Below are positions 33,554 to 57,672 of a DNA stretch of 64,000 nt, piece after piece. Each line of letters begins with the position of its first letter. Positions within the stretch are counted from its first letter, which is position 1. The position numbers and the translations under genes were made by a program. The stretch spans positions 186,001-250,000 of the forward strand of contig BDDD01001974.1 in the NCBI GenBank assembly GCA_001972305.1, read 5' to 3'. The stretch comes from Cephalotus follicularis (taxonomy: Eukaryota; Streptophyta; Magnoliopsida; Oxalidales; Cephalotaceae). The notes below the pieces were generated by a model. That model was not told where the DNA came from, did no database searches, and worked only from the letters and a program-made list of their open reading frames with translations.

Positions 33554-36500
33554 ATGAAGTTGTTATTTAGTACAACAATGGGTCTTGGGTGGTGGAGATT
33601 GATTGGTGCTGCTCTTGTTGGTATTGTCTTCTTCCATGGATTTTGTGCTTCTGAGAAAGGTATCAATTTTTTATTGGCCTATATATATATATATGTATGC
33701 TCATATTTTCTTGGTAACCTAATTCATACTTTCTTCAAAGTATGGGTAATCAAAAAGGGTTTTACCTTCAGCATTTTTTAGAGAATCTCCTATCTTGTGC
33801 ATAATTAGTTTAGTTCGTGATAAGGAGTGGCTAAGAGCTTCAATTTATAAGTTCAAAAATGAAATTATCTTGAGTCTTCACTATCACCAATCATGTTTTT
33901 TCTTTGTGACCCCATCTTTGCGACTTTTTATCTTTTGTTGCATGTCATGTAGCATTTTCTGCTATAATGCACTGCAAGAATGTGATACCGTTAGATCAGA
34001 TTTTATTTTACTTTTTTTATAAAAATAATTTCTGATACAATAACGTTGCACGTCCTTGTATCAGAGGGTATGTTGCACGACGCGCAATATAGCGTCACAA
34101 ATACCTTCAATAATGCTTACTTTTAATCTCAATATATAAGTTTAAATATGATTTTTCATGCAAAACCATATATTAATATTAGCTAATTAATCTCTCTCTC
34201 CCTCTCGACAGCTCCCAATTACAGTTTCATGCAGAATGCAACCTCAGCACCAGACGTCGCGTACTATGATTACATTATCGTGGGTGGTGGCACTGCGGGG
34301 TGCCCTTTAGCCGCTACTCTCTCTCAAAATGCTAGCGTCTTGCTAATTGAACGTGGTGGATCTCCCTACGGCGACCCTAAAATCTCCAACTTATCCGCCT
34401 TTGGGGCTGCCTTATCCGACGTCTCCCCGACCTCCCCCTCGCAGCGTTTTGTCTCCGAAGATGGCGTCATCAATGCCCGAGCACGCGTCTTGGGTGGCGG
34501 CACATGCCTTAATGCCGGATTCTACACACGCGCCTCCCGGGATTACATAAGGTCCGTACTAAAGATTTTTTATGTATATTAAGGACACCACGTGGTTATG
34601 CACAATACTACAAACATGTCAACATTGATAAATACTGTTTGTTAACAAAAAAGGGAACAAATAAGCCCCCATAACATTAGTGGATCCATGTATTATTGAT
34701 AGTACATGGCGTATATAAGAACTTATCCTAACATGTAGGAGAGAATCATCACCATAATGTAGTAGAATGAGTGCATAATTTACCCGAAAGACTTTATAAT
34801 GGCCAAGGCCCAGCCCGATGTGTGCTACTATAGTGGTCTATTTATTGTTTAAATAATTAGTTGTCTTGTTTATTTGCTCAATTAATAATGCTAGTCGTAT
34901 CCACGTTTTACCAAATTTATCTTTTCGACGTATGTGTCACTGTACATGATATATATTTATTCATTCGTAAAAATTAATGGCATCCACTTTCGTGTTTTAT
35001 TCTCCACTTATCATTCATGTGTAATGATATATGTATTGAGATGAAAAAATTGATAAATGTGTTATAAAGTTTTTGCATTTTTATTATTTACTACTCATAT
35101 TTCTTAGCATTTATTTTTTTGTGGCCTCGTTACACTAGCGATGCGGGGTGGGATGAAAAATTGGTGAATGAATCATACCAATGGGTGGAAAAGCTTGTAG
35201 CATTTGAGCCGCCGATGCGGCAATGGCAGTCGGCCGTGAGGGACGGGCTGGTGGAGGCAGGGGTGGTGCCATACAATGGGTTTACATACGATCACTTGTA
35301 TGGCACTAAGGTTGGTGGTACAATATTTGATAAGGATGGCCATAGACATACAGCTGCTGATTTGTTGGAGTATGCTAATCCTAGTGGGCTTACCGTTCTT
35401 TTGCATGCCCCTGTGCATAAAATCTTATTCAAAATTAGAGGTACATGTATTTTCCTTTATAATTTGTTTTTAGTATATATATAATATATGTGAAGTGTGA
35501 ATATTTTTTATATAAAACATAGCTTGTGTTCACTTTTTTCCCTTTCTCTGCCGTTTTGTGACAAAATAGGACAACCAAGACCAGTGGCCCATGGAGTGAT
35601 CTTTAGAGACAGATTAGGGGCCAAGCACAAAGCTTACCTAAATACTGGAGCCCAAAATGAGATAATTATATCAGCTGGTGCACTGGGAAGCCCACAGATC
35701 TTGTTGTTAAGTGGAGTGGGCCCTAAGGATCACCTTAAGGAGCATAATATCACAGTGGTGTTGGACCAGCCCATGGTTGGACAAAGAATGTCTGATAACC
35801 CAATGAATGCCATTTTCGTCCCGTCTCCAGCCCCGGTGGAGGTTTCGCTCATTCAAGTCGTTGGCATCACTCACTTCGGCAGCTACATTGAGGCCGCAAG
35901 CGGTGCAAACTTTGCCGGTGGCTCTTCTCCAACTTCAAGAGATTATGGCATGTTCTCTCCCAAGGTACAGATCTATAAAATCCCATTATTGTGCTAGCAC
36001 ATAGAAAATCAATTTATTTTGGACCAGGCCCAATAATTGGCTTACTTACAAAGAGCCTATCAAGCCCAGATATTCTTGGGCTAAAAGATAACATCTTTCT
36101 TGAAAGAAATTGGTAACTAAAAAAATGGATTATCATGCAGATTGGTCAACTGTCCACCGTAGCACCTGGAAAAAGGACCCCAGAAGCCATAGCCAAAGCT
36201 GTTGAACTCATGGATGGTCTTGATGAAGCAGCTTTTAGAGGTGGATTTATCATTGAAAAAATTATGGGCCCAACCTCAACAGGCCATTTAGAGCTTTTGA
36301 CCCGTAATCCCAACGATAACCCAGTAGTTACTTTCAATTATTTCCAAGAAGACGATGATTTGCAAAGATGTGTACAAGGCATTGAAACCATTGAAAAAAT
36401 AATCGAGTCAAAAGCATTCTCTAAGTTTAGGTATGATAATATGGATATCCCAACACTGATCAACATGACAGCAAGTGCACCAGTGAATATGGTACCAAGA

Positions 36501-36869
36501 CATACCAATGTAACAACATCACTTGAACAATTTTGTTTGGACACAGTTATGACCATATGGCACTATCATGGTGGATGTCAAGTTGGTAGTGTTGTTGATC
36601 ATGATTATAAGGTTCTTGGTGTGGATGCACTAAGGGTTATTGATGGTTCCACTTTTAATTACTCTCCTGGGACTAATCCTCAAGCTACTGTCATGATGCT
36701 TGGAAGGTAACTAGTATATATAATTAGCCTTTTAATGGTAATGATTTTATGATTTATAACATTGTTTTAATTGATTACTAATGGGTTTGTATTGCTTTGG
36801 TGCAGGTATACGGGAGTTAGAATGTTGAGTGAGAGACTCACAAGTGAAGAATCAAAGATTAATGTGTGA
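33554..36869 (+). CDS. HOTHEAD-like GMC-family FAD oxidoreductase
   Basis: A secreted-pathway flavoprotein of the plant HOTHEAD/mandelonitrile-lyase-like GMC family. HOTHEAD is linked to cutin fatty-acid oxidation and organ fusion, but the substrate of this copy is unknown. Coding exons: 33554-33659, 34212-34551, 35139-35440, 35570-35964, 36141-36706, 36806-36869. They join in frame to 1773 nt, about 590 aa, close to the usual length. Exon 1 encodes a hydrophobic signal peptide (GAALVGIVFFHGFCAS). Exon 2 has the FAD dinucleotide-binding motif VGGGTAGC (glycines at 60-65) and the GMC signature VLGGGTCLNAGFY. Exon 4 carries SAGALGSPQILLLSGVGP, the second GMC signature. Exon 5 has the catalytic-site region WHYHGGC (His522/His524) and NPQAT with Asn560. 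No stop or frameshift is seen. The first in-frame ATG before the signal peptide was chosen. Confidence 0.93.
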
Positions 36870-39602: not shown

Positions 39603-39607
39603 CCATC

Positions 39608-40581
39608 TATTGATACAGAAATCCTTCTCTCAACAGTATCCTACGTGGAGGACTTTTATTTGTTAAGAGAAACGCTTGTCACAGATGCCTTGAGGAAGCT
39701 TTTGATCTCGGATCCCTGCACAAGGTAACGAAAATGGTGGAAAGTCTAGGAGGTTGTACTCCCGGGGACACTCCGACGCTCAAGTTAGACAAAGTGCAGA
39801 TGAAACAATGTTCTTTGTAATGCAAAAATGGCTGACCTTTGTTCAGTCTGTTGAACTTGTATTTATAGTGGTGTTTTGTAACTGATTGAGCATAAAAATC
39901 GGAGGTAGTGGCTGTCCCCTAAGGAAATTCTGAGGATCTCGGGATTTCCCTTATCTCCACCTGAATTATCTCTTCTTTCCTTTATCGTCTCCTTAATTAT
40001 CTCCTTTCCTTGTTGATTGTCATCCCTATCTTATCTTCTGTATTTGTTGATAGTCATCCTTATCTTATCTTCTATATTTGGAAGATAAGGATCCCTGGAA
40101 TTTAGGCTAACTCCCTGGCCTCATTCCGTAAATGAGGAGGAGACCTTCTGTCAATAATCTGCCGAGGAGAGGAGCTGCTATGAAGCTAATGAGACAGTCA
40201 GTCCTTGGCTTCAAAGTCTTCAAAGTCCACGGACTTGCAGTTGAGGAGAGTGGTCTCCTGTTATGTAGCCGAGAGGGAGGCCCTCGGTATTATGCTTCGG
40301 TAGGTGTCCTCGGACCCATCACCGAGGAGGATGAACTTTGCATGGCAATCATTGGACTGGTCCTCGGCACTTATGCCGAGGAGAAAGACCTTTGTAGTGA
40401 AACCACTGGGTGTGTCCTCGGCACTTATGCCGAGGAGAAGTCCTCCTTATATTATTGCTTTTCTTGACTAACAGACTTCCTCTGCTTCTATCTCATCAAT
40501 TGTTGAGTCACTTGGACACCTGGTAGTGCTTGGATGAGGACACGTGTTGTTTTTTATTTAACTTAATTTTTCCCCATATCA
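39608..40581 (-). repeat. 3' LTR of the Tat-type element
   Basis: A 974-bp direct repeat of 50634-51607. The plus-strand edges are TATTGATACAG (the sister copies have TGTTGATACAG, so one terminal base is mutated) and CCCCATATCA. The minus-strand TATA box TATAAATA lies at 39860-39867. U3 holds the paired CCTCGG/CCGAGG hairpins. Confidence 0.92.
40362..40435. promoter_or_regulatory. Paired palindromic CCTCGG...CCGAGG hairpins in U3
   Basis: The 20-bp near-palindrome CCTCGGCACTTATGCCGAGG occurs at 40362-40381 and again at 40416-40435, exactly 54 bp apart. The same pair lies in the other LTR at 51388-51407 and 51442-51461. Related palindromes appear at 61746-61765 and, as CCTCGGCACAAGTGCCGAGG, near 56911. 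The upstream U3 position suggests enhancer or protein-binding repeats (inference). Confidence 0.55.
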
Positions 40582-40594
40582 TATGCCCCCCTGG
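40582..40594 (-). promoter_or_regulatory. Polypurine tract next to the 3' LTR
   Basis: The minus strand reads CCAGGGGGGCATA and directly abuts the LTR start TGATATGGGG. The same tract precedes the LTRs at 56706 and 20770, consistent with the plus-strand priming site of LTR retrotransposons. Confidence 0.8.
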
Positions 40595-40979
40595 TCCTTG
40601 TTCTCTGACCGTGGTCAGAGGAGAAGGAACAGAGTTGAGAACCGCGACCCAGGCAATACACCTTTGCAAAGCTTGCTACTAATCCTCTTCTCATGAACCA
40701 GCCGAGAACAAAGACTGCCTTGTATTATTTTTTGCACAAAGTTGGGTGTGCCTTGGTAGAGGATCAAGGCCTGCCCCTTGTCTTTTCCTGTCCCATCTAA
40801 AGGACATCGTGCCATGAACCCACATCATTGCATTTAATAGCGGATTAAGCACACTTCACACATGGCACAAGCAGAGCGTTTCCCGCCTCTGCCTCTTCAT
40901 TTCCCGCGCTAGGTATGTCGGTTGGCTTTTTAACCGTTAGATCTTCGCTAGATGGATGGCCAGGATTCAAGCTTTAGCC

Positions 40980-41211
40980 TATAAAAGAAACCCTAAATCA
41001 CCTATCCACTCTTTTACGCCTTTTTGCTTTTTGCCAACACCTGAGAGTTTGAGATTTCCAGTTTCTCTTGTGCCTTTAACCTTGAATCTTCGTCTTCCTG
41101 CCAATCTTTGTTCAAGTTTCTGAGTAAGTTGATAATTCTTTTACTGTTCTAAACTGGTTCTTGTCTTTCCTTCGTGCTTCTTCTCCATCTCCTCTGTTTA
41201 TTTTGACCTAA
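40980..41211 (+). promoter_or_regulatory. Promoter and spliced leader of the opposing gene
   Basis: A TATAAAA box at 40980-40986 lies 232 bp before the ATG. It recurs 222 bp before the ATG in the copy at 62312, 241 bp before it in the copy at 56296-56302, and in the short derivative at 20356-20362. A strong donor (GTAAGT, 41124-41129) is also conserved at 62451 and 56157-56152. In the other two copies CTAG sits directly before the ATG and would be the acceptor. Here it reads CTAA, so the acceptor is lost. Confidence 0.65.
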
Positions 41212-43571
41212 ATGGCCAGAACCAAACGCACTGCTAGGGTTTCTCCTCCCTTGGAGGTTGAGCCCCTGGCTATGGTGATCCCCCCTGCTGAGAGTCCCCT
41301 TCCATCTGAGGGTAGCTTGGGGGCTGCAGTGGGTGAACCAACCCTTCCCGTCACCGAGGCTGACTCCTCTGCCCCTGATGGCTTTGGTGTCAGTGCTCTC
41401 TCTCAGCAGGATGTGGTTGAACTAACTACCAAGTTCAATTTCCCTTATGGGTTGAGATTCTGTCTCCCCAAGGATCCTCGGATGGTCACAGAGAGTAGAG
41501 AGGGCCTCTTCATTGTCTTCGAGGGGGCTCTTACTCATGGTCTGAGGATCCCTGTTCCTTCTTTTGCCTTATCCATTTTGGAGGCATTCACCGTACACCC
41601 TTCTCTTCTCCAACCCTAGTCTTGGAGCTTCATAATAGGTTTCCTCGTTAGATGTCAAGAGTCCGAGGTGACCGCCACAGTAGGATTGTTCAAACAGTTC
41701 CACGTCATCTCGTCCTCGCCAGGGAAACGTGGCTACTTTTTCAAGTCACGTCCTGGCATAACAAAACTTCTCACCAAACCAACTCAGTCCATTAAGAATT
41801 GGAGGAAGAGGTACTTCCTCATCAAAAATTTTGAAGGGTTCACCCCCCCTGTGTGGTGTGACTCCCTGGAGACTACACGTCTTAATAGGAGGCCCATTCT
41901 GACAATGGCCGAGAACCTGGACTTCGACAAGCTCATCCACTTGGAACCCGAGGAGGTGAACTCTGTCGTGGTTGAGGAGCGTCTGCTCCGGGCTGGGCTA
42001 AGTGTTCCTCCAAGCCAAGAGTCACACTCGACCGAGGTCGAGGAAGCCTCAGGGGATGAGGGGTCCCCAGTCCAATCCATGCCCCAAGAGATAGGGGAAA
42101 ACTGTATAAAGCTTTCATCTCCTCCGTCTTTCTTGTCTTCAAATTTATAATCTTGTAGTTCAATTTTAAGTCACTGACATTATTGATCTCTGCTTGTACA
42201 GCTATGTCTTCTCGGCGAGGGTTCGATGCTCTGTTCAATGCCACCAAGGGCTCTAAGTCCTCCTCTGCTGCTGCAGAGAAACAAAAGGCTGCCGAGGTGG
42301 CAGCTAAACAAAGGGCTGCCGAGGAAGCAGCTAAACTGAAGGCTGCCGAGGGGGCCAAGCAAAGGGCCAAGGCTGCCGCGGTTGGGGCCAAACAACTGAA
42401 GAAGGCCGCGGTCACTGCCAAGGGGAAAGGCTCCAAACGTCCTGTCAGTGGGCGTACCTCTGACGGTCCTCCTTGTCCTCCAAGTAAAAGGGGGAGACTC
42501 ATCACTAAGCCCGAGATGGACTCCATCCTCGGACGAACTTCAGACGTCCCTATCATCTTGCCTCCCTCTCGAGACGTGGAGAGGATGATCGATGAGCTAG
42601 AGGGAGTTGGGAAGGGCTCCTCTAGCCTGAATACTCAGGGGGTTCCATTTGCCCTCAGCTCTCTCTGTCTTTTCCCGGATGAGCTGAAGGAAAGGGAGGA
42701 CTGGTCGAGCAAGGACCTCGTCCATAACTCATTGCGAAGCCAGCTTGAGGTAAAGGGAGATCCTCTGACCGTGTAGTTTGTACTTCTGTATTTTCTGTTC
42801 TAACTTCATTCTTCTTTGCAGGCTTTGAATAACCACCACCTCTTGGTTGAGAACTACTCAATCATCTTGGAGAGGTGCGACAAGCTGAGGTTGGAGGTGA
42901 TGAAGGAGAAGGAGACTTATCGGCTTGCCAAGGCTCAACTTGAGGAAGTCCTCAAGGCTCAAGAGGCCACTGTAGAGGAGAGGAATAGAGCTGTCCTGGA
43001 GAAGGACCAATCAGAGAAAGATCTATCTAAGGCTCGCTACCTGTTCCAGTCTTTGCAGAGGCAACATGAAGAGACCTTGAGGAAGTATGAGGAGGCTATG
43101 AAGAGGCGTGAGGAGGAAAAGTCCAAGGCTGTGCAGGATGCCCTTGATGAGTTCAGGTCCTCTGATGAATTCCATAGCTTGATGGAAGCCTCCGTGGAGG
43201 ACTTCAAGGCTTCTGAGGCCTTCGGCGAGGAGGTCTTCAAGGAATCTGCCGAATACTATCGTCGGGGATTCTATACTTGCAAAAATTGGGTTAAGGCTCT
43301 GCATCCAGAGGTTCCCCTGGAAGAGGTCACCTACTGCTCAGCTGCCAAGGCCTTCGATTACTATCCAGACAGATACGAAGCTGAGGAGGCGAAAGCCGAG
43401 GAGGCTTTGGAAAGGAATGCTGGCCAAGAAGTTAGTGAAGAGCTAGAAGTTCAGGCTGCCTTCGATGACCCTGCTTCAAACCTCGCGACTCCTCAACCTC
43501 CTCAAGCTGACCCTTTTGTCCCTCATCTTCCTCAAGATGCAGCTTCCTCTAATCCTCCAGCCTTAGCTTAG
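41212..43571 (+). pseudogene. Opposing spliced gene of the Tat element (putative gypsy-type transposon domain)
   Basis: Runs opposite to gag-pol. Exons: 41212-42103, 42202-42749, 42822-43571, each joint GT/AG and in frame, giving about 729 codons. Exon 1 holds a domain I recognise as the plant 'putative gypsy type transposon' family (Pfam Transposase_28): KFNFPYGLRFCLPKDPR, SFALSILEAFTVHPSLLQP, SWSFIIGFLVRCQESE and SIKNWRKRYFLIKNFEG. Exon 2 begins MSSRRGFDALFNATK and has an Ala/Lys/Glu-rich low-complexity stretch, then basic KRGR-type motifs that could act in nuclear import. Exon 3 is a long Glu/Lys/Arg-rich coiled coil (about residues 480-600) with an acidic, proline-rich tail. An in-frame TAG at 41617-41619 breaks exon 1. 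Molecular function unknown. Confidence 0.82.
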
Positions 43572-44939
43572 CTTTTTTTTTTTTTTTTTTTTGTAATAGC
43601 TTTTTCTTCTTGTACTTGTAATTTTTGACACATGAATGCAGATAACCTTTTGCATCCTCTGCTGTTTTTACTTTTTTGCATTGTGAGCTTGCGTTTGCAC
43701 TTAGCATGTATATTTACAATCCCCTTAAGGATTTTGCCCATTGGGACCTCTGACTTCTCGTAGAAGCAGATACTCCTCCAAAAGAAACTCAGTAACTTTA
43801 AAAAATATTAATAACCCTCTTGTAATCTCTTCCAGACATAGATAAAAGAATTTCTTTCATTCTCTGGTCTTGGCTTTAAATACTGTGCTATGTGTTGTAG
43901 TTGATCTCTGCATACTTGTAGTTATTAATAATTCCCTTAGGAATTTTGTCTTCAAGGTGACCTCTGACTTCACGAACAAGTGAACACTTGACTCCAAAAA
44001 AACTTAACAAAAATATAAGTAAAAGGGGCTTTGCCTTCTCGGACTTTGTCTTCAATCGGTTCCTTGTGTTTGAACTTTGAGTGTATATATGTGCTGATAA
44101 TTCCTTAGAACTTTTAACTTAGCTCAAATCACTAACCTTTTATGGGCGAGGTCACCCAAGCTTACTAGTCCCCGTAGGACCCTTTACTTTTGAGAGTTCT
44201 TTAGTTTGACAGTAACCCAGTCTTCACAAAATCTTTATACTCATAATTTGAGTTCTTGATCTGCTCGGACAAGTTCCCATGGGTTTGCCGACGAGAGTAT
44301 CGTCTGACCTAAGAGGTTTTAGGACAGGTCGGCTGAGCTTTCAGTCCACTTAGAGACACTTGTATTAAAGTGCTCAGTCCGACGAGCTTGATCGTTGCGA
44401 GTTCCCATGGGTTCGCCTTTCAAGTCACGACTTTAGGTCTGGTTGGACAAGTTCCCATGGTGTTGTCTACCAGTGTTTGCTCCCTTAGGAGTCTTAGTGC
44501 TTCCTTGAAAGTCTTTGTTGATAGATATAGGTGCTCCTCGGAAGGAGTCTTTTGCATGCTCCTCGGAAGGAGGCTTTTGTATGCTCCTCGGAAGGAGGAT
44601 TTTGTATGCTCCTCGGAAGGAGGCTTTTTGTATTTGTATCCTTGGATGCTCTTGAACGCCTGTTTCGCTGGTCTGTCTGAGACCTCGGTTGGTGTTGGTT
44701 TTCTTTTTTGAGAGTTAGCCTCCGTAAGGCTTAGGGAGCTTTAGGTCTCTAGGTGCCCCCTTGGGGGCATGGTCCGAGATGCTTAGCTTAAGACTGAGGG
44801 AGCTGATCGGCGGCTGTTCAGAGGTTTGAGGACATGAACATTGGGCCTCCGCTCCCTTGCAAACTTGGAACTATGGTGTTGAACACAAATCTTGGACAAA
44901 TCTTGAAAAAATTCAAACTTTATTGAAAATTTATTACAA
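43572..44939. other. Spacer between opposing gene and end of pol
   Basis: Holds the 3' end of the opposing transcript, with a T-run at about 43573-43592 straight after the stop, then non-coding sequence with short repeated phrases such as AAGTTCCCATGGG (near 44272, 44401 and 44449). No open frame of note. Tat-lineage elements typically have a long non-coding spacer here. Confidence 0.6.
44532..44629. repeat. Four tandem 25-bp hairpin units
   Basis: The unit TGCTCCTCGGAAGGAGGCTT followed by TTGTA repeats four times with few changes. Each contains the inverted repeat CTCC...GGAG (CTCCTCGGAAGGAG), so each unit can form a short stem. Confidence 0.85.
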
Positions 44940-47900
44940 TTATTGATAGTACTTCCTCAGATGCTCGGCATTCCAAGCTCTGGCAATCTCCCTACCCCCC
45001 AAAGTTTCAAGTTTGAATGTTCCTAGGCGGAGGACCCTTTTGATCTTGTATGGCCCTTCCCAGGCAGGGGCTAGCTTTCCTCTGGTACAAGTAGGATCTG
45101 CAACCGCCGAGTTACGTAGGACTAGATCTCCTTGCCTTAATGGTCTTGGGCTTACTCTTTTGTTGTAATAACGGCTTACCCTCTCTTGGTAGGCTGCAAC
45201 TCTGATCACGGCCTTATCTCTGAGTTCTTCCACTAGGTCGAGGAGGCTCCTCAGCCCTTCTTCATTGTTGTCCTCAGTGAAATGCACAACTCTTGGTGAT
45301 TGTACTCCAACCTCCACTGGTATCACGGCCTCTGCTCCGAAACATAAACAGTATGAGGATTCTCCGGTGGTAGTCCGAGGAGTAGTTCTATATGCCCATA
45401 GCACACTTGGTAGTTCCTCGGTCCACCTTCCCTTGCTGTCTTCTAGGCGCTTTTTCAAACCCGAGATAATTTCTATGTTGATCACCTCGGCTTGGCCATT
45501 GCTTTGTGGGTAGGCTACTGAGGCAAGTCTATGCTCTATCCTCCATTCTCTGCAAAAGTCTCGGAAGGCTTGTCAATCAAACTGCTTACCATTATCGGTG
45601 ATAATTGTCCTTGGAACTCCAAATCTGCAGATTATTGACTTCCACACAAAGCTCTCTGTGTTCTTCTCTGTTATTGTTGCCAGAGGTTCTGCTTCCACCC
45701 ACTTAGTGAAGTAGTCAACCGCTACAATGAGAAACTTCCTTTGGCCTGTTGCCATAGGTAATGGTCCGACGAAGTCCATTCCCCATTGTGCGAAGGGCCA
45801 CGGGGCCATAATTGATGTCAGAGGTTGAGAAGGCCTTCTACTTATATTGGCATTCCTCTGACACTTGTCACACTTCCTCACTAAGTTTATAGCATCTTGA
45901 TGGATGGTCGACCAGTAGTAACCTTGCCTTAACAGCTTGTGAGACAAAGTCCTGCCCCCAGTGTGGTTTCCACAAATTCCTTCATGAACTTCCCTTAGAG
46001 CATAATCGGCCTCTGAAGGGTTCAAGCACCTCAGCCAAGGAAATGAGAAAGACCTTTTGTAGAGGATCCCATCTCGGAATTGGAACCTGTTTGCTCTATA
46101 AACTAGCTTCCTCGCCTCTACGGGGTCCTCGGGGAGGATCCCGTCCCTTAGCCAACTGATAAAGGGAGTCATCCAATTTGGCTCCTGAGGAACATCTATG
46201 TCCATTACCTCTGCTTGAGAGATTGTCGGACGCTCCAGGTAGTCAACTAGCACTGTTTGATTTTTCTCTAACTCCTCTGCTGTTGCTAGCTTTGACAATT
46301 GATCTGCTCTGACGTTCTCTGCTCTGGGCACTTTCACAATCCTCAAAACTTCGAATGCTGACTTCATGCCCTGAAAATGGGACAAGTATTTCATCATAAG
46401 GTCTTCTCTGGCCTCATACTCCCCATTCGCCAAACCAACCACTAGCTGAGAATCACTTGAGGCTTCAATCCTCTGCACCTCCAAGTGCTTTGCGATTGTC
46501 AGTCCGGCTATCAGAGCTTCCCACTCAGCTTCATTATTTGTAGCTTTGAACTTAAACCTCAGAGCATATTCCAACGTCCAACCGTCTGGACTTGTCAATA
46601 CTAATCCTGCCCCACTGCCAGTGAGGCATGAGGATCCGTCCACTGATAACTTCCACATTCCCTTCTCGCTCTCGGAAGGGTTCTCCTCCATACACTCCGT
46701 AGGTGTATTATCTCCAACAAAGTCGGCCAATACCTGTGATTTGATTGATGGTCTGGATTAGAACTTCACATCATACTCGCCTAGTTCGACTGACCACTTA
46801 ACTAACCTGCCCGAGGTGTCAGGCTTGGCAAGAATTTGTTTGAGTGGTTTGTCAATCAAAACCTTGATTGTATGGGCTTGAAAATATGGCCTCAATTTTC
46901 TGGCCGAGATGATCAAAGCATAGGCAAACTTTTCCACCTCTGGGTACCTTCCCTCTGCATCATTCAAAGCCTTGCTCACGTAGTACACCGGCTTTTGAAC
47001 TTTTTCCTCTTACCTGACTAGCACTACACTCACTGCGCCCGAGGTGGCCGCAAGGTACAAATACAGGTCTTCTCCATCCTTAGGTTTTGAGATCAGAGGA
47101 GGAGAAGCCAAGTATTCCTTCAACTTGTCGAAGGCTGCTTGGCAGTCGTCGCACCATGAGAATCCCTTGGGATCTCTAAGTATTTTAAAGAAGGGAAGGC
47201 ACTTCTCTGCCGACTTGGACACAAACCTACTCAGGGCTGCAATATTCCCATTTAACCTCTGGACATCCCTGATGGTTTGAGGTGGCCTCATGCTTTGAAT
47301 TACCAAGATCTTTTCTGGGTTGGCCTCTATTCCTCTGCTAGAGACCATGAATCCGAGTAACTTTCCCGAGGTGACCCCAAACGTGCACTTGGAAGGATTG
47401 AGCTTCATATTATACTTTCTCAACACCTCAAACGTCTCCTCCAAGTCTTTTACATGGGGGTTCCTGGCTGGGGTTTTGACGAGCATATCGTCTATATACA
47501 CCTCCATATTCTTCCCAATCTGAGGTTCAAAAATTTTGTTGACCAGGCGCTGGTAGGTGGCCCCCGCATTCTTCAAGCCAAAGGGCATAACATTGTAGCA
47601 GTACATTCCTCGGTCTGTTACGAATGCTGTCTTGTCCTCGTCTGGCCTGTACATGGGGATTTGATTGTATCCCGAGTAAGCGTCCAAGAAGCTCAATATT
47701 CTGTAACCCGAGGTTGCATCTACCAGCTGATCTATCTTTGGGAGAGGGAAGTGATCCTTTGGACAGGCTTTGTTAAGGTCTGTGAAGTCTATGCACATCC
47801 TCCATTTGCCATTGGCTTTTTTGACTAACACAGGATTTGCTAGCCAGTCTGAGTAGTGCACTTCTCTGATGAAACCTGCCTGCAACAACTTGCTCTCCTC

Positions 47901-48986
47901 CTAGGCTATTGCCTGTTGCCTTTCAGGGGCAAAGTTTCTCTTCTTTTGTCTGATCGGGGGCCTGGCTGGGTCCACACTTAGCTTGTGAACCATTACACTT
48001 GAACTGATGCCAGGGACCTCCTCAGCCGACCATGCAAAAACATCCTTATTATCTCGGAGGAATGTTATTAATTCCTCCTTCTCCACCTCTCCAAGTTGTG
48101 AGCCAACTTGGAGTACTCTCTCTGTGTTGCCCTCTTCTATGGGCACTTGGATGACATCCTCAACAGGCTGTGGACGCTGTGGTTCTACATCACCTCTGAG
48201 CTCCACGTTTGCTATGGGGAGGACCTTGCCCTTCCCCTTGTCTGAGATGACAGTTTTATAACATCGCCTTGCCACCTCTTGGTCTCCTCTGACCTCCCCC
48301 ACGCCAAACCTTGTTGGAAACTTCATTAATAAGTGTCTCGTAGACACTATGGCCTCCAACAAGTTCAGTCCTGGTCGCCCCACTATAGCATTGTATGGGC
48401 TTGGGGTGTCCACCACCAGGAACGTCATCTCTACCTGAGTCTGACATGGGGTCGTGCCTGCAACCACGGACAGGTTGATAGATCCCAGAGGATGGATCGT
48501 CTCACCTGCAAAACCAACCAGTGGGGTTTTGACGGGCTTCAACTGGTCTGCCGGTATCCTCAACTGATCAAATGCATGTTTGTACAGGATATCCGCCGAG
48601 CTGTCACTATCTATGAGGATCCTCTTCATGGTAAAAAGTTCCACCAGAAGAGTTACCACCACTGGATCATCGTGAGGAAGACGTACTCCCTCATAGTCCG
48701 CCTCGGAGAAGGTTATCACCTCCTCATCTCCACCAGTTCTGAGCCTTTTACTGTGAGGGACTTGTTGCACAGCGAGGGACTGTCTCCCATAGGCCTTTCT
48801 TGCATTTGAGTGGTCGCCCCCTGATGCGACCCCTCCAGAGATGGTGTGGATAACACCTCTGGGTTGCTGCTGTTGTTGCTCCTCTTGCTGCCGAGGAGCC
48901 TCTTCTCTTCTCTGTTCCCTCCTTCCTTGAGGGGCATCTCTGTCTACATACTTGCGCAAGTGTCCCTTCCTAATCAGGTCCTCAAT
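44940..48986 (-). pseudogene. Tat-type pol: protease, RT, RNase H, archaeal-type RNase H, integrase
   Basis: Continuous in one frame with gag but with stops at 47901, 47010, 46758 and 45573 (first base on the plus strand). Protease: the active-site triplet, normally DSG, reads DSD in LIDSDSSADILY. RT: MPFGLKNAGATYQRL and the catalytic YIDDMLVK near 47480-47500. First RNase H: KPVYYVSKALNDAEGRYPEVEK. Second, archaeal-type RNase H: LSVDGSSCLTGSGAG, NNEAEWEALIAGL and ASSDSQLVVG. Integrase: HHCC zinc finger from HEGICGNHTGG to KCDKCQ, then catalytic D and D in GMDFVGPL and ITDNGKQFD, and E in GQAEVINIE. The C-terminal end is HLRKYYQ, followed by the stop at 44940. Domain order (RH and aRH before integrase) fits the Tat lineage. 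The stops and altered protease make it inactive. Confidence 0.92.
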
Positions 48987-50588
48987 CTAATTCTTTAGTT
49001 GCCTGCACTCCTCTGTATCGTGGCCGTGGTCACGATGATACCGACAGTACTTCTCCACACTTCTGTTCTCTGCCGGGGTCCTCAACTTCCCAGGCCACTG
49101 GAAGGGGACTTTATCTTGCTCCACTGTAAGTATCCTGGTTCGTGTGTCCAGGAGGGGGGCAAAAGTGTTGTAAGATGGTATGGGTGCCCCACCCCTGGAT
49201 GTGCCCTCTCGTCTGGAGAGCTTGTGTCTGAGGTCTTCCTTAGACAGGTCTGACCTCTCCTTCCTCTTCTCTCTCCTCGCGGGAACATTTCATGAATGCT
49301 CCCTTCTCTCCTCCTGATGGCCAGTCCAGGGTGCCTTTTGCTTCCTAGCCACCATCTCTTCCTCGGCATTGACATATCTCTCTGCCCTTTTCAGTAATTC
49401 TGCCATGTCCTTGGCCGGCTTCTTCAGTAGAGAGAAAGTGAATCTCGAGTTGCTCCTCAGCCCATTGTTCAAGGCTGCCAGAGCAAAGGATGGCTCCAGG
49501 TCTTTCACTGTAAGTGACTCCTTGTTAAACATGGTGAGGTAATCTCTCAGTGATTCATCTTTACCCTGCACCACATTGATGAGGTGGGTAGAATTTCTCC
49601 TCTGCGTGGTGCTGTTGAGGAACTTTGTGACGAACAGTTCTGTAAACTGATCGAAGCTCTTCACTGAATTCCTTGCCAAGGTAAAGTACCATGCCTGGGC
49701 AGCTCCAATCAAAGTCATTGGGAATCCTCGGTAGAGCATGGCGTCCGAGGCTTGATACATCCACATAGCCTGGATGTATGAGCGTACATGTTGGATGGGG
49801 TCCGTGGACCCATCGTACTTATCAAGGCTTGGGTTTCGGAACCCACTTGGGACTTGCTCTGCTATGATCTTGGCTGTGAAGGGGTGTGCATTAATATTTT
49901 GCACCTCGGATAGGTGTCCCCTTGGCTGTTCCACTCCTCGGAACCTCCTCTCCAGGTCAGCAAGCCTTCTGCCTACTGCTTGCTCCACATCCTCAATGTT
50001 CCTAGCCCTGCTAGAAACGCGTGATCCTCCAGCCACAGAAGCTGGGGGGTTGACTCTGCTTCCTCGGACCGTGCCAGCTCTGTGTGGAGCGTTGGAGCGT
50101 ACTTGTGCCTCCTCTGCTCCCCTGGCCTCCTGCCGAGGATCCACATCCATAGCCTGGCACTGAGGGTATGCTCTCCTGGGATCGTTAGGGTGATCCCTTA
50201 CAGTCGAGGACTCAGCTCTCTGAGATGCATTGATCTCAGGCCTCCTTCCCAGGGGATTGTTGTCCCCTGACCGCCTAAGGGGAAGTTCATCTCCCCTCGA
50301 CGGGTTTCGCCTGGAACCTCGTGGGTGCCGTTCCTCCACCTCTGGTCGTTGGGGACCAGAAACTCCTCGGACCACTGGCTGAGCAGGCCCGGCTTGCTGT
50401 TGTTGGTTGGCCAAAGTGGTGACCAAAAGATCTGTGATACGCTCCAACCCTTGGAGGAGCTGATTGAGTTGCTCCCCTGTGACGGGAGCTTGTTGTTGAG
50501 CCGCTGCTTGGGCGACTTCTGGTGGAGGAGCTATGACCTCCTGTTGGCTGCCAGTGGCTCCAACCAGGGTGTTCTTCCTCGGAGGCAT
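48987..50588 (-). pseudogene. Tat-type gag
   Basis: Begins MPPRKNTLVGATGSQQEV just inside the primer-binding site. A Gln/Ala-rich N-terminal part and an Arg-rich linker precede the capsid-like core (YDGSTDPIQHVRSYIQAM, FPMTLIGAAQAWYFTL, FDQFTELFVTKF), the part of gag that assembles the particle. A zinc-knuckle-like CRYHRDHGHDTEEC follows near 49000-49030. In-frame stops at 49290-49292 (TGA) and 48987-48989 (TAG) interrupt the region. No frameshift separates gag from pol, so the ancestral product was a single polyprotein of about 1880 codons. Confidence 0.9.
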
Positions 50589-50613
50589 GGTTATTGATGA
50601 CTTTTTGCTGCGT

Positions 50614-50631
50614 TTCTCACAGACGGCGCCA
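50614..50631 (-). promoter_or_regulatory. Primer-binding site
   Basis: Two bases inside the 5' LTR, the minus strand reads TGGCGCCGTCTGTGAGAA. The TGG start is expected for pairing with the CCA end of a tRNA. The exact tRNA is not assigned here. Confidence 0.75.
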
Positions 50632-50633
50632 AC

Positions 50634-51607
50634 TGTTGATACAGAAATCCTTATCTCAACAGTATCCTACGTGGAAGACTTTTATTTGTTAAGAGAAACG
50701 CTTGTCACAGATGCCTTGAGGAAGCTTTTGATCTCAGATCCCTGCACAAGGTAACAAAAATGGTGGAAAGTCCAGGAGGTTGTACTCCTGGGGACACTCC
50801 GACGCTCAAGTTAGACAAAGTGCAGATGAAACAATGTTCTTTGTAATGCAAAAATGGCTGACCTTTGTTCAGTCTGTTGAACTTGTATTTATAGTGGTGT
50901 TTTGTAACTGATTGAGCATGAAAATCGGAGGTAGTGGCTGCACCCTAAGGAAATTCTGAGGATCTCGGGATTTCCCTTATCTCCACCTGAATTATCTCTT
51001 CTTTCCTTTATCGTCTCCTTAATTATCTCCTTTCCTTGCTGATTGTCATCCCTATCTTATCTTCTATATTTGTTGATAGTCATCCTTATCTTATTTTCTA
51101 TATTTGGAAGATAAGGATCCCTGGAATTTAGGCTAACTCCCTGGCCTCATTCTGTAAATGAGGAGGAGACCTTCTGTCAATAATCTGCCGAGGAGAGGAG
51201 CTGCTATGAAGCTAATGAGACAGTCAGTCATTGGCTTCAAAGTCTTCAAAGTCCACGGACTTGCAGTTGAGGAGAGTGGTATCCTGTTATGTAGCCGAGA
51301 GGGAGGCCCTCGGTATTGTGCTTCGGTAGGTGTCCTCGGACCCATCGCCGAGGAGGATGAACTTTGCATGGCAATTATTGGACTGGTCCTCGGCACTTAT
51401 GCCGAGGAGAAAGACCTTTGTAGTGAAACCACTGGGTGTGTCCTCGGCACTTATGCCGAGGAGAAGTCCTCCTTATATTATTGCTTTTCTTGACTAACAG
51501 ACTTCCTCTGCTTCTATCTCATCAATTGTTGAGTCACTTGGACACCTGGTAGTGCTTGGATGAGGACACGTGTTGTTTTTTATTTAACTTAATTTTTCCC
51601 CATATCA
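50634..51607 (-). repeat. 5' LTR of the Tat-type element
   Basis: A 974-bp repeat matching 39608-40581 with roughly 19 mismatches. Being upstream of gag on the minus strand it is the transcribing LTR. The minus-strand TATAAATA box is at 50886-50893, the terminal bases are TGATATGGGG (outer) and CTGTATCAACA (inner), and both U3 hairpins are present. Confidence 0.92.
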
Positions 51608-51612
51608 CCATC

Positions 51613-52309: not shown

Positions 52310-52314
52310 AGATG

Positions 52315-53215
52315 TGTTGATACAGAAATCCTTCTCTCAACAGTATCCTACGTGGAGGACTTTTATTTGTTAAGAGAAACGCTTGTCACTGATGCCTGTA
52401 AGGAAGAAAGTGATCTCGGACACCTGCACAAGTAGCAACAACGGTGAAGGCCCAGGAGGTTGTTCTCCCGGGGACACTCCGACGCTCAAGTTAGTCAAGT
52501 GCAGATGAAATATTATACTCTCTTCAATGTAAAAAATTGCTGACCTTTGTTCAGTGTGTTGAACTTGTATTTATAGTGGACTTCTGTCATTGAATGAGCG
52601 TATGAATCGGATTGATTGTTATCCCCTAGGAAATGCCGAAGATCTCGGACATTCCCTTATCTCCGCCTGTAATGTAGCTACTTTCCTTTATTGTAGTGAT
52701 TGATTTGGACTCTATCTCTGTGTTTGGATAAGTACAGATCCCTTGGAATCTGGTAAAGGTTATCCCCTTATCCCGTAGATAAGGTTGAGATCCTCCATTA
52801 TAGGGTAGTATTGATTGTGACATGCCTGCCGAGGAAAGTAAGTCTCTGCTGTGGTTCCGAGGATGGAACAATGTGTAAGGTCATCCGAGGAAGAGATCCT
52901 CAGCTTCGGTATACAGGAGACCGTATCTCCTGTTCTCCACCTGATAATTACTATGGGCCGAGGGATTCCTCGGCCATCGCACCATGAAAGTGGCGTTTTG
53001 CCTTTGAGTCCGAGGAGTGTCCTCGGACTTGTGGTCTCAGTGTGTTGTCTTCGAAAAATGGTGGTCCTCGACTCTAGGTCCGAGATGGACGTTCATTGCC
53101 ATAAGTGTACTCCTCGGTAGGGTCTACTAACAAGCTTCTAGTCTTCCCTGGACAGCTGGTCAAGTCTGCTGTGGACACGTGTCCTTGTTTTTATAAACCT
53201 ATTTTTCCTCCATCA
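52315..53215 (-). mobile_element. Solo LTR of the Tat-type family, second U3 subtype
   Basis: A 901-bp LTR starting TGTTGATACAGAAATCC and ending TTTTTCCTCCATCA on the plus strand. Its flanks are AGATG at 52310-52314 and AGATG at 53216-53220, a perfect 5-bp duplication. There is no internal region. The U5 side matches the 12-kb element, but the U3 side (reverse-complement start TGATGGAGGAAAAATA) matches the derivative at 19843 instead. Confidence 0.9.
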
Positions 53216-53220
53216 AGATG

Positions 53221-53791
53221 TAAAACTGAAAATTTTTACCGTAAGTGTAATTTGATTCCAACTCTATTTAAATAGTGAAAAAAAATTTAGGTTAGTAAGT
53301 CAATTATTAGCGGACAAAAGGAAGTCTCACCATCACGACGTGATACATGGGAGTAATCACCATATGGGAGACCTATAGGGGCTTGCTGCAACTAATTTAA
53401 ATCGTTAGAAAAAATCTCTTCGTGAACATGAGAATTTGAACACGAGGATATGCATACTTTATATAAGTAAAATATCTAATTTAATTGTTATATTAATAAA
53501 ATACGATCCATATGTCCAATAATTAAAGTAAAAAAAGATATAACTTGTATATTATGACAAATATATTCATTTTTTCATATGTACATAAGCATGACCCTCA
53601 AGATGCGAGCAATTAATCTAATATTAAAGATAAACGTGCTTTGATCTCGAGTGATTTGGCCGTTTTCTCTTTGCTAATTATATAATAGCAACGATTAATT
53701 GATTTCGAGGTACAATAGCAAAAATTGCTTTTGAAAAAGGTGGCTACATCCCTCAAGATTTAATTCGATTAATTGAATTTTATGTTTTATA
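53221..53791. other. AT-rich spacer, no gene seen
   Basis: Short intergenic stretch between two insertions of the same retrotransposon family. Nothing further recognised. Confidence 0.45.
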
Positions 53792-53796
53792 TATAT

Positions 53797-53952
53797 TGTT
53801 GATACAGAAATCCTTCTCTCAACAGTATCCTACGTGGAGGACTTTTATTTGTTAAGAGAAACGCTTGTCAATGAATGCCTTGAGGAAGACTTTGATCTCG
53901 GACACCTGCACGAGGTAACAGAAATGGTGGAAAGTCCAGGAGGTTGTTCTCC
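53797..53952 (-). repeat. 156-bp terminal inverted repeat arm
   Basis: Matches the reverse complement of the last 156 bp of the element (57517-57672) with one mismatch seen near the outer end. A near-identical arm implies the inversion happened at or shortly before insertion. Confidence 0.85.
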
Positions 53953-54334
53953 AAATATAGAAGATAAGATAAGGATGACTATCAACAAGTATGGAAGATA
54001 AGATATGGATGACAACCAGCAAGGAAAGGAGATAATTAAGGAGATGATAAAGGAAAGAAGAGATAATTCAGGTGGAGATAAGGAAAATCCTGAGATCCTC
54101 AGAATTTCCTTAGGGGACAGGCATCACCTCCGAATTTCATGCTCTATCAGTTACAAAACACCACTATAAATACAAGTTCAACAGACTGAACAAAGGTCAG
54201 CCATTTTTTGCATTACAAAGCACCTTGTTTCATCTGCACTTTGTCTAACTTGAGCGTCGGAGTGTCCCCGAGAGAACAACCTCCCGGACTTTCCACCATT
54301 TCTGTTACCTCGTGCAGGTGTCCGAGATCAAAGT

Positions 54335-56061
54335 AGCCTTGAGGACTTCCTCTAGCTGAGCCTTTGTAAGCCGAGAAGTCTCCTTCTCCTCCATCACTTC
54401 CAACCTCAGCTTGTCGCACCTCTCCAAGATGATTGAGTAGTTCTCAACCAAGAGGTGGTGGTTATTCAAAGCCTGCAAAGAAGAATGAAGTTAGAACAGA
54501 AAATATAGAAGTACAAACTACACAGTCAGAGGATCTCCCTTTACCTCAAACTGGCTTCGCAATGAATTATGGACGAGGTCCTTGCTCGACCAGTCCTCCC
54601 TTTCCTTCAGCTCATCCGGGAAGAGGCAGAGAGAGCTGAGGGCAAATGGAACCCCCTGAGTATTCAGGCTAGAGGAGCCCTTCCCAACTCCCTCTAGCTC
54701 AACAATCATCCTCTCCACGTCTCAAGAGGGAGGCAAGATGATAGGGACGTCTGAAGTTCGTCCGAGGATGGAGTCCATCTCGGGCTCGGTGATGAGTCTC
54801 CCCCTTTTGCTTGGGGGACGAGGAAGTTTGTCAGAGGAACGTTCACTGACAGGGCGTTTGGCCCCTTTATCTTTGATCGCGGCCTTCTTCAGTTGTTTGG
54901 CCCCAACCGTGGCAGCCTTGGCCCCCTCGGCAGCCTTCAGTTTAGCTGCTTCCTCGACAGCCTTTTGCTTAGCTGCCACCTCGGCAGCCTTTTGTTTCTC
55001 TGCAGCAGCAGAGGAGGACTTAGAGCCCTTGGTAGCATTGAACAGAGCATCGAACCCTCGCCGAGAAGACATAGCTGTACAAGCAGAGATCAATAATGTC
55101 AGTAACTTAAAATCGAACAAGATTATAAATTTGAAGACAAGAAAAACGGAGGAGACGAAAGCTTTATACAGTTTTCTCCCATTTCTTGGGGCATGGATTG
55201 GACAGGGGACCCCTCACTCCCTGAGGCATCCTCGACCTCGGCCGAGTGTGATCCTTGACTTGGGGCAACACTTAGCCCAGCCCGGAGCAGACGCTCCTCA
55301 ACCACAACAGAGTTCACCTCCTCGGGCTCCAGGTGGATGAGCTTGTCAAAGTCCAGGTCCTCGGCCGTCGACAATGTTGGCCTCCTATTGAGACGTGTGG
55401 TCTCCAAGGAGTCACACCAAACAGGGGAGGTGAACCCTTCGAAATTTTTGATGAGGAAGTACCTCTTCCTCCAATTTTTAATGGATTGAGTAGGTTTGGT
55501 GAGAAGCTTTTTTATACCATGACGTGACTTAAAAAAGTAGCCACGTTTTCCTGGCGAGGACGAGATGACATGGAACTGCTTGAACAATCCCACTGTGGCG
55601 GTCACCTCGGACTCTTGACATCTAACGAGGAAGCCTATTATGAAGCTCCACGATTGTGGTTGAAGAAGAGAAGGGTGGACTTTGAACGTCTCCAATATGG
55701 ACAAAGCGAAAGAAGGAACGGGGATCCTCAAACCATGAGTGAGAGCCCCCTCGAAGACAATGAAGAGTCCCTCTTTGCTCTCTGTGACCATCCGAGGATC
55801 ATTGGGAAGGCAAAACCTCAACCTAGGAGGGAAATTGAACCTGGTGGAGAGTTCAACCACCTCCGAGCGAGAAAGAGCACTGGGACCAAAGCCATCAGGG
55901 GCAGAGGAGTCAGCCTCGGTGACAGGAACGTTTGGTTCACCCACTGCAGCCCCCAAGCTACCTTCGGAAGAAAGGGGACTCTCAGCCGTGGGAATCACCA
56001 TGGCCAGGGGTTGAACCTCTAAGGGAGGAGAAACCCTAGCCGTACGTTTGGTTCTGGCCAT
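54335..56061 (-). pseudogene. Opposing gene, truncated copy
   Basis: The same gene as at 41212, here on the minus strand relative to a plus-oriented element. Exons: 56061-55170 (892 nt, fully open), 55074-54545 (530 nt, 18 nt shorter than the reference through in-frame loss in the Ala/Lys-rich part), and 54472 to about 54335, where exon 3 is cut by a junction to LTR sequence. Exon 1 has the whole putative gypsy-type transposon domain, with FNFPPRLRFCLPNDPR and SWSFIIGFLVRCQESE. A TGA at 54722-54724 interrupts exon 2. Upstream, the TATA box (56296-56302), GTAAGT donor (56157-56152) and CTAG acceptor before the ATG are all intact. Confidence 0.82.
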
Positions 56062-56705
56062 CTAGGTCAAAATAGATAAAGGAGATGAAGAAAAGAAGAA
56101 AAAAGCAAGAAAGAAAGAGAGGAATCAATTTAGAACAGTAAAAGAACTGTTAACTTACTCAAGAACTTGATTGGAAATTGGCAGGAAGACGAAGATTCAA
56201 GGTTGAAGGCACAAGAGAAACTAGAAATATCAAATTCTCAGGTGTTGGCAAAAAGCAAGAAGGCGTAAAAGAGAGGATTAGGGATTTAGGGTTCCTTTTA
56301 TAGGCCCAGGCTCTAATCCTGGCCCTCCATTTAGCAAAGATCCAATGGTGAAGAAACCAACCGACATACCAAGGGCGGAAAACGAAGAGGCAGAGGCGGG
56401 AAACGCTCTGCTTGTGCCAGGTGTGAAGTGTGTTTAATACATTACCAAAAGGCAATGATGTGGGTTCATAGCACGAGGTCCATTGGATGGGACATGAGAA
56501 GACAAGGGGGCAAGGTTGATCCTCTTCCAAGGTGCATTTCATTTTGTGCAAAGGAAAATTCAAAGTGAAACCTTGGTCCTCAGCCCCGTTTACGAACGGG
56601 GAAGTCAGTAGTAAGCTCTGCAAAGGTGTATTGCCTGGGCCACGGCTCTCAACTCTGTTCCTTCTCCCCTGGCCATGGTCAGAGAACAAGGAACAGGGGG
56701 GCATA

Positions 56706-57672
56706 TGATATGGGAAATATTAAGTTAAATAAAAAACAACACGTGTCCTCATCCAAGCACTACCAGGTGTCCAAGTGACTCAACAGTTGATGAAACAGAA
56801 GTAGAGGAAGTTCGTTAATCAAGAAAGCAACAATATAAGGAGGACTCCCCGGCATAAGTGCCGAGGACACACCCAGTGGCTCCAGTACAAAAGTTATTCA
56901 CCTCGGCACAAGTGCCGAGGACCAGTCCAGTAATTGCCATACAATTTTCATCCTCCTCGGCGTCAGGTCCGAGGACACCTACTGAAGCACATTGCCGAGG
57001 ACAGTCTCGACTATATAAACAGAAGGCCATCCACTTCGAGTACAAGTCTATGGACTGAGAAGACTTTGAAGCTAGGGACTGACTCTCATTAGCTTCGCAG
57101 CAGTTCCTCTCCTCGGCAGATCACTGACAGAAGGTCTCCTCCTCATTTACGGAATGAGGTCAGGAAGTTAGCCTAAATTCCAGGGATACTTATCCTCCAA
57201 ACATAGAAGATAAGATAAGGATGACTATCAACAAGTATGGAAGATAAGATAGGGATGACAACCGGCAAGGAAAGGAGATAATTAAGGAGATGATAAAGGA
57301 AAGAAGAGATAATTCAGGTGGAGATAAGGGAAATCCCGAGATCCTCGGAATTTCCTTAGGGGACAGCCATCACCTTCGAATTTCATGCTCTATCAGTTAC
57401 AAAACACCACTATAAATACAAGTTCAACAGACTGAACAAAGGTCAGCCATTTTTTGCATTACAAAGCACCTTGTTTCATCTGCACTTTGTCTAACTTGAG
57501 CGTCGGAGTGTCCCCGGGAGAACAACCTCCTGGACTTTCCACCATTTCTGTTACCTCGTGCAGGTGTCCGAGATCAAAGTCTTCCTCAAGGCATTCATTG
57601 ACAAGCGTTTCTCTTAACAAATAAAAGTCCTCCACGTAGGATACTGTTGAGAGAAAGATTTCTGTATCAACA
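56706..57672 (+). repeat. 3' LTR of the rearranged derivative
   Basis: A complete 967-bp LTR from TGATATGGG to TGTATCAACA, preceded by the polypurine tract GGGGGGCATA. U3 holds three related palindromes, including CCTCGGCACAAGTGCCGAGG at about 56911-56930. The TATA box CTATAAATAC lies near 57411. Confidence 0.85.

Follow-up and report, generated by a model that had tools for sequence, protein, structure and literature searches.

A predicted intron-bearing antisense gene with a histone H3-like start in a probable Retand-type retrotransposon of Cephalotus follicularis

Introduction

Is a gene that runs against the gag-pol of a retrotransposon a working part of that element, and if so, what would its product do? 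The question is raised by a 64,000-nucleotide stretch of the Cephalotus follicularis genome (GenBank assembly GCA_001972305.1, contig BDDD01001974.1, positions 186,001 to 250,000 of the forward strand; hereafter the window), in which a Ty3/gypsy long terminal repeat (LTR) retrotransposon, element A, has gag-pol on the minus strand and, between pol and its 3′ LTR, a plus-strand gene of three coding exons. Two further copies of this gene, B and C, lie in the same window (coordinates in Table 1).

We hold it nearly certain that this is a selected, spliced, protein-coding accessory gene. Judged by its domain, position and surroundings, it is best explained as the antisense accessory gene of a Retand-type (Tat-lineage Ty3/gypsy) retrotransposon, and its predicted protein starts with eight residues resembling the tail of histone H3. 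The whole explanation, comprising the Retand accessory gene and the mechanism proposed below, we consider rather probable. An antisense gene with a TRP28 domain is a hallmark of an abundant angiosperm retrotransposon lineage, and a single intron-bearing gene, under selection and with an H3-tail-like start, turns what was a vague question of function into a directly testable one.

Selection on the antisense reading frames

The initial annotation had described a three-coding-exon gene opposing gag-pol, with a first exon of the same length in all three copies, each broken at a different codon, and had concluded that the ancestral frame was maintained. Exon 1 does measure 892 nt in A, B (55170-56061, minus strand) and C (62534-63425), with the donor CT/GTATAA in all three (a slash marks the junction). 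The breaks are a TAG at 41617 in A (codon 136), a TAG at 62630 in C (codon 33) and, in B, whose exon 1 is open, a TGA at 54722-54724 that ends the exon 2 frame. The 1.58 Gb assembly of this one genome was then searched, giving 44 copies in all: A, B, C with its continuation, 39 further copies that are the best exon 1 matches to A, and two C-type copies out of 39 others listed. Identity in exon 1 is thus biased upward in this sample, and the ratios should be less affected.

The pooled pairwise ratio of nonsynonymous to synonymous divergence (dN/dS) in the called frames of the 44 copies is 0.199 for exon 1, 0.209 for exon 2 and 0.308 for exon 3, against 1.09-1.74 in the other two frames (1.29 and 1.74 for exon 1). 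The three-exon model and its maintained frame are thereby borne out, and a ratio near 1, named beforehand as what would refute the gene, was not found. Comparison of A-type with C-type copies (codon bootstrap) gives 0.225 (0.166-0.306), 0.203 (0.139-0.277) and 0.248 (0.189-0.317) for exons 1-3. Third codon positions account for 68, 63 and 60% of the sites whose second allele is shared by four or more copies and for 32, 31 and 18% of singleton sites, a contrast that points to selection in replicating lineages and decay after insertion. With rows aligned over less than half of a region dropped (37-40 of 40 kept, depending on the region), there are 0.22 indel events per kb in exon 1, 8.9 in intron 1 and 14.7 in the stretch from the TATA box to the ATG; indels in multiples of three make up 40 of 45 in exon 2, 60 of 121 in exon 3 and none of 8 in exon 1. 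The TRP28 region of exon 1 has a dN/dS of 0.122. These patterns show purifying selection on the coding exons while the element replicated, the broken copies being, on the same comparisons, products of later decay.

The locus of copy C (13.7 kb) has no match to the gag or pol pieces of element A, and reverse transcriptase (RT) was therefore compared in seven other copies, out of the 39 listed beside A. Over eight copies the RT dN/dS is 0.093; within the same five elements it is 0.109, and the exons give 0.184, 0.168 and 0.204. The gene is constrained, somewhat less than RT, under selection that approaches that of RT.

These figures bear directly on the idea that the antisense transcript is itself the functional product, as double-stranded RNA, as a source of small interfering RNA or through promoter interference, the protein being irrelevant. 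Antisense transcription is reported for Grande and Retand, and a review leaves a regulatory role for the RNA possible (PMC7264820). However, an in-frame dN/dS of 0.2-0.3 in all three exons contradicts RNA as the sole product, and the mostly three-base indels of exon 2, together with the near-RT level of selection, call for a protein, to which an RNA role may be added. An RNA-only function therefore seems to us barely credible.

Introns, leader and putative promoter region

The antisense gene appears to be spliced at conserved sites. Intron 1 is present in all 44 copies and intron 2 in 43, the reading phases are compatible across both introns of copy A, and the terminal dinucleotides are listed in Table 1. 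Exon 1 is open in 18 of the 44 copies, exon 2 in 33 and exon 3 in 20; all three are open in eight, seven of which also have all four splice dinucleotides of the coding introns. Introns could survive retrotransposition because the RNA that replicates is the opposite strand, which would not contain these splice sites.

A different reading would divide the same sequence into several independent antisense open reading frames (ORFs). A survey of Retand elements lists separate antisense ORFs (PMC11963269), and start codons that could serve such frames exist: an ATG lies 2 nt inside exon 2 of copy A, another likewise 2 nt into the exon after acceptor 1 in a distant relative (locus L052, described below), and Met is the second residue of exon 3 in L052. 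Yet the splice dinucleotides are kept in 91-98% of copies, with gaps counted as losses, as against 0.37-1.0 for the 18 other GT and AG of copy A inside introns 1 and 2 (13 of the 18 at 0.7-0.9, gapped copies excluded). Moreover, the exon 3 frame of copy A has no Met before residue 27, the reading phases of copy A are consistent at both introns, and L052 has intron 2 at the same site and in the same phase. Independent ORFs are on this evidence very improbable.

The three coding exons of the initial annotation stood, and the model proved incomplete: it had missed a leader intron (donor at 41124), the PF04195 domain and the histone-like N-terminus. There is evidence from the alignments for a further non-coding 5′ exon and a leader intron ahead of the ATG, apparently new with respect to the literature consulted. 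The donor of this putative 5′ untranslated region (5′UTR) intron reads GTAAG in all 44 copies, and GTAAGT at 41124 and the overlapping TAAGTT tie for the highest conservation among 505 upstream hexamer positions in 41 copies. Immediately before the ATG stands AG in 34 of 44 copies, AA in nine and AC in one; copy A is among the decayed acceptors (CTAA/ATG). Since copy A has no AG between donor and ATG, an intron that would remove the MARTK start of the protein was also considered; it was rejected because AG/ATG occurs in 34 of 44 copies and because dN/dS is low on both sides of the end of the motif (0.165 in codons 2-9, 0.139 in codons 10-20).

A TATA box had been predicted before the ATG, and the TATA-like motif is indeed there, 233 bp upstream in copy A, with CCTATAAA[A/T] found in 38 of 41 aligned copies. 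The gene also keeps its place in the element: in all four other contigs common to the exon 1 and RT lists, RT is oppositely oriented and 5617-5799 bp away from the ATG, and in the window the distance is 5798 bp.

Affiliation with the TRP28 class

Exon 1 encodes a TRP28 (Transposase_28, PF04195) domain, which scores above the cut-off of 26.2 bits in copy B (E 6.8e-10, 39.5 bits, residues 101-165) and copy C (E 1.1e-8, 35.6 bits) and below it in the truncated frame of copy A (17.7 bits). According to the survey, 97% of Retand clusters have an antisense ORF with TRP28 between pol and the 3′ LTR, whose function is described as unknown and for which DNA binding is predicted (PMC11963269). The gene belongs to this published class, and an antisense gene in such an element is not new in itself.

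Element A agrees with the Retand description in several further respects. In the stretch 45573-46730, an RVT_3 domain (PF13456, 57.9 bits) precedes Integrase_H2C2 and rve; an additional RNase H between the RNase H domain (RH) and integrase is a Retand trait (PMC6317226). The RH behind RT is represented in 47010-47888 by an RT_RNaseH_2 match at the ORF end, below cut-off (26.4 against 29.8 bits). Some 4.36 kb separate pol from the 3′ LTR (44940 to 40581) and hold the antisense TRP28 ORF. The LTRs of 974 bp and the internal region of about 10.05 kb fall in the ranges that the survey gives for Retand, 315-1,194 bp and 7,380-12,869 bp (PMC11963269). A further trait of the lineage is an integrase without a chromodomain; no chromodomain match was obtained in the scanned pol pieces, but pol is broken and its distal piece has no Pfam match of any kind.

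A distant copy found through PF04195, L052, extends the comparison. Its exon 1 is 43% identical to that of copy B over 298 residues, its exon 2 30% over 168 aligned columns (E 5e-12, reading L052 through one stop) and its exon 3 28.6% over 147 aligned columns (E 8.8e-12). It also preserves the order of the exons, acceptor 1, intron 2 at the same site and in the same phase, and the start MARTKQT. A second distant TRP28 copy, L053, has no readable exons beyond the domain-bearing frame. From 9886 first-look candidates, the genome search with PF04195 left 150 scored Transposase_28 places, many of them in open frames of 340-430 aa, and several TRP28 families therefore probably coexist in this genome.

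Outside the TRP28 domain, searches returned little. For exons 2 and 3 no Pfam match is better than E 0.3, sequence searches of the PDB gave nothing credible (one returned two matches, the better at E 0.35), and none of the nine pattern matches in a scan of viral_contigs is a relative. NCBIfam matches to exons 2 and 3 (SipA E 0.005, TolA E 0.067 and MutS2 E 2.4, among others) lie far below the cut-offs, and we rejected them as homology because they appear to be driven by composition; the weak TolA match falls on the Ala/Lys-rich exon 2.

The survey draws separate uninterrupted antisense ORFs, some of which match Smc, TolA or a recombination inhibitor; the term ‘intron’ occurs nowhere in its main text (PMC11963269). 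Given an Ala/Lys-rich exon 2 with a weak TolA match and a charged exon 3, some of these published ORFs may correspond to exons 2 and 3 of one gene, and we suggest re-annotation of antisense ‘TRP28’, ‘Smc’ and ‘TolA’ ORFs as possible exons of a single gene. The gene of the window thus resembles the surveyed ones in its position between pol and the 3′ LTR, its antisense orientation, PF04195 and the sizes of element and LTRs, and differs from the uninterrupted ORFs predicted there in its three coding exons and leader intron, in the selection measured on it and in its H3-like N-terminus.

An H3-like N-terminus

The predicted protein starts MARTKRTARV in 34 of the 44 copies, and ARTKxTAR is intact directly after the start codon in 37. 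Residues A2, K5, T7 and R9 are invariant, R3 is present in 43 copies, and no copy has an in-frame ATG in the 100 nt upstream. Host H3 genes, judged from four 5′ ends, start MARTKQTARKS, and the antisense start resembles H3 residues 1-8 without K9. The position of K9 is V in all 44 copies, S, A, A, S, Q and V in six other loci of the gene (L054-L059) and L in L052, with lysine in none of the 51. An H3-like sequence thus stands at the N-terminus of the protein, where it would be exposed on removal of the initiator Met. Neither an H3-like start nor introns in antisense Tat/Retand proteins are described in the literature covered by our search, which consisted of titles and abstracts and lay mostly outside subscription papers.

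The start is widespread. A degenerate MARTKxTAR pattern has 628 + 574 = 1202 matches in the genome, some of which have a stop at residue 6, and a reversed control has one match. That these matches might be H3 genes was rejected, as a search for H3 N-termini turned up only about nine, five in full genes and four in first exons; four H3 genes have introns. At the 5′ ends of two host H3 genes, L061 and L060, an acceptor-like AG comes after a run rich in T and looks like the end of a leader intron placed at or close to the ATG. The six loci L054-L059 were fetched for a Gln codon (CAA or CAG) at position 6 among the first ~100 of the 1202 places listed, and their starts are for that reason not an unbiased sample; all six are the antisense gene, with MARTKQTAR and AG/ATG, and five have a GTAA donor within the stretch shown.

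Does the likeness to H3 matter? The alternative of which we think best is that the MARTK-like start is a short basic end that binds nucleic acid or serves nuclear import, on an otherwise ordinary TRP28 DNA-binding regulator, its resemblance to H3 being incidental. The window's family has R for Q at residue 6 and so retains the basic charge, T-K-R in L052 (MARTKQTKRLV) adds to it, L053 showed no MARTK start, and the survey predicts DNA binding for TRP28 (PMC11963269). Against this reading stand Ala2, invariant in 44 of 44 copies and needed by an exposed N-terminus but not by a basic charge, and the order A-R-T-K-x-T, which families share although the residues behind it have diverged: copy B and L052 share 6 of 8 residues in positions 2-9 and 19 of 57 in positions 10-66. 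Three distinguishable families (L052; L058; L054-L057) start MARTKQT. A merely basic end is a plausible reading, though one we hold at well under an even chance; that the N-terminus acts as an H3 mimic, to judge by these alignments, we would put only a little short of even.

Several observations weigh against a mimic. Residue 6 is never Q in the family to which the window's copies belong and is R in 40 of its 44 sampled copies, and the exact ARTKQTAR was seen in the six loci picked for it. The 2.45 kb fetched for L053, including ~450 nt before the domain, contain no MARTK-like start. In L052 donor 1 could not be placed, the leader acceptor is not AG, and an in-frame ATG lies 14 codons upstream, where it would fall within the putative 5′UTR intron. 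Pfam gave no match to a histone domain, homology to H3 was not found beyond residue 8, and a phmmer search with the first 30 residues returned no H3 chain at E up to 10. AlphaFold did not yield a fold for exon 1 (mean predicted local distance difference test score, pLDDT, 38). Codons 5, 9, 10 and 12 show no synonymous change in the 44 copies, so that part of the conservation may act on nucleotides, and the gene is known here from the sequence of one genome.

How would such an end arise? One hypothesis of origin, compatible with the explanation that we favour, is that a TRP28 gene acquired, by in-frame fusion, a piece of a host H3.3 gene comprising the end of the leader intron and the first nine codons. 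In the host H3 gene L061 (409) an AG abuts the start codon (TTCAATTAG/ATGGCC), as in the AG/ATG of the element gene, and L060 (360) has TTTCATAG 5 nt before the ATG; the likeness to H3 ends after codon 9, the genome has four H3 genes with introns, and in a plant replacement H3 gene the first intron is reported to give constitutive expression (PMC5216049). Against this, AG abuts the ATG in only one of the four host H3 5′ ends fetched, whose leader introns are themselves predictions. The best nucleotide matches, of 30 nt (E 1.1e-5) and 59 nt (E 8.8e-6) with the low-complexity filter off, consist of the shared codons and 6-35 nt of a leader rich in pyrimidines, for which a splice acceptor would be explanation enough, and convergence accounts for the same facts. 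Capture is for these reasons unlikely.

Proposed mechanism and comparison with other systems

We propose that the TATA region, which lies between the 3′ LTR and the ATG, would drive transcription of an RNA that, once spliced, yields a protein of ~729 residues. Removal of the first Met would expose A-R-T-K-[Q/R]-T-A-R, which copies H3 residues 1-8 and lacks K9. The protein may enter the nucleus by a basic motif in exon 2 (PSKRGRL, which resembles a nuclear localization signal) and may oligomerize through exon 3. The TRP28 region would keep it with element DNA or its complexes, and the H3-like end could engage host readers or modifiers of H3 lysine 4, with relief from silencing or steering of integration as the likely benefit. 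The part of H3 that is resembled is the contact region of lysine-4 readers and enzymes, namely PHD fingers, WDR5, and LSD1-type and JMJ-type demethylases. Such factors might be sequestered by the protein or brought by it to the DNA of the element. In Arabidopsis, JMJ14, LDL1/2 and SHH1 link the H3K4 state to RNA-directed DNA methylation.

In its most specific form, the proposal would be that the nuclear protein from this spliced antisense Retand gene is an eight-residue decoy of the H3 tail without K9, which occupies H3K4 readers or erasers needed for transposon silencing or tethers element complexes to them, and whose end and leader intron may be captured from host H3.3. This version is speculative and, taken whole, rather unlikely; if true, it would describe a transposon-borne histone mimic. 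The H3-like N-terminus is, in any case, a specific and testable lead on the role of the gene.

Histone-tail mimics are known elsewhere: influenza NS1 (ARSK) is one, and SNAG domains imitate the end of H3 for LSD1. The protein discussed here is like these in being a non-histone protein that presents an H3-tail-like peptide, no homology being claimed, and differs in that it is a candidate known from sequence, encoded on the antisense strand of a plant retrotransposon, with the likeness at the N-terminus and eight residues long. HBZ of human T-cell leukaemia virus type 1 (HTLV-1) is a basic leucine zipper (bZIP) protein from a spliced gene that starts in the 3′ LTR. It too is a nuclear regulator from an antisense gene, a comparison used in the survey (PMC11963269), and we claim no relationship. 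The gene23 of maize Grande, as described in the review (PMC7264820), is likewise an antisense gene placed ahead of the 3′ LTR; its transcription starts at an upstream promoter and its product is a nuclear protein.

Element A, copies B and C and other features

The LTR pair of element A is 97.9% identical over a 984-bp BLAST alignment (Kimura two-parameter distance, K2P, 0.020 over 973 sites), and a 5-bp target-site duplication, CCATC, flanks the element at 39603-39607 and 51608-51612. Its gag-pol is split over several separate frames. All features are collected in Table 1.

Table 1. Positions in the window of element A, its antisense gene and the related copies.
Feature	Position	Strand	Remarks
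Element A, Ty3/gypsy LTR retrotransposon	39608-51607	-	gag-pol on minus strand
3′ LTR, element A	39608-40581	-	974 bp; 97.9% to 5′ LTR
Polypurine tract adjoining 3′ LTR	40582-40597	-	minus-strand GGACCAGGGGGGCATA, by eye
TATA-like box	40979-40987	+	CTATAAAAG, 233 bp before ATG
Putative non-coding 5′ exon	41010-41123	+	start placed ~30 nt past TATA box; end is the conserved donor
Putative 5′UTR (leader) intron	41124-41211	+	88 bp; acceptor abuts ATG in most sampled copies
Coding exon 1	41212-42103	+	892 nt; stop at 41617 in copy A
ARTKRTAR, histone-H3-tail-like	41215-41238	+	codons 2-9
TRP28 / Transposase_28 domain	41512-41706	+	PF04195; codons 101-165
Intron 1	42104-42201	+	GT 43/44, AG 42/44
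Coding exon 2	42202-42749	+	Ala/Lys-rich
PSKRGRL, nuclear-localization-like motif	42480-42500	+	exon 2; aligned with TKRPRI of L052
Intron 2	42750-42821	+	GT 40/44 (2 gaps), AG 41/44 (1 gap)
Coding exon 3 with stop codon	42822-43571	+	charged; coiled-coil-like by eye
Distal integrase region of pol	44940-45485	-	ORF; label from position, no Pfam match
RVT_3 (additional RNase H) and integrase	45573-46730	-	PF13456, PF17921, PF00665 above cut-off
Reverse transcriptase	47010-47888	-	PF00078, E 9e-35
pol ORF upstream of RT, protease position	47901-48959	-	ORF; protease label from position alone
gag	49290-50588	-	PF03732, E 2.9e-13
Primer binding site just inside 5′ LTR	50616-50633	-	GTTGGCGCCGTCTGTGAG; label from position
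5′ LTR, element A	50634-51607	-	974 bp
Copy B: 3′ LTR and same gene	54335-57672	-	cut in exon 3; no gag-pol
Copy C: LTR and same gene	61072-64000	+	runs out of window

A 25-bp unit, repeated about four times at 44532-44633 between pol and the antisense gene, resembles the tandem arrays reported for about half of the surveyed Retand elements (PMC11963269). The region of copy B (53788-57672) is rearranged and internally deleted, with exon 3 ending abruptly at 54335 against LTR pieces, one of which is inverted. At 52312-52694 lies an LTR fragment of a related copy, solo or broken, that is ~82-84% identical to the LTRs of element A and copy B. The window also holds an open frame of 191 aa at 36135-36710, which looks like the C-terminal part of a HOTHEAD-like GMC oxidoreductase.

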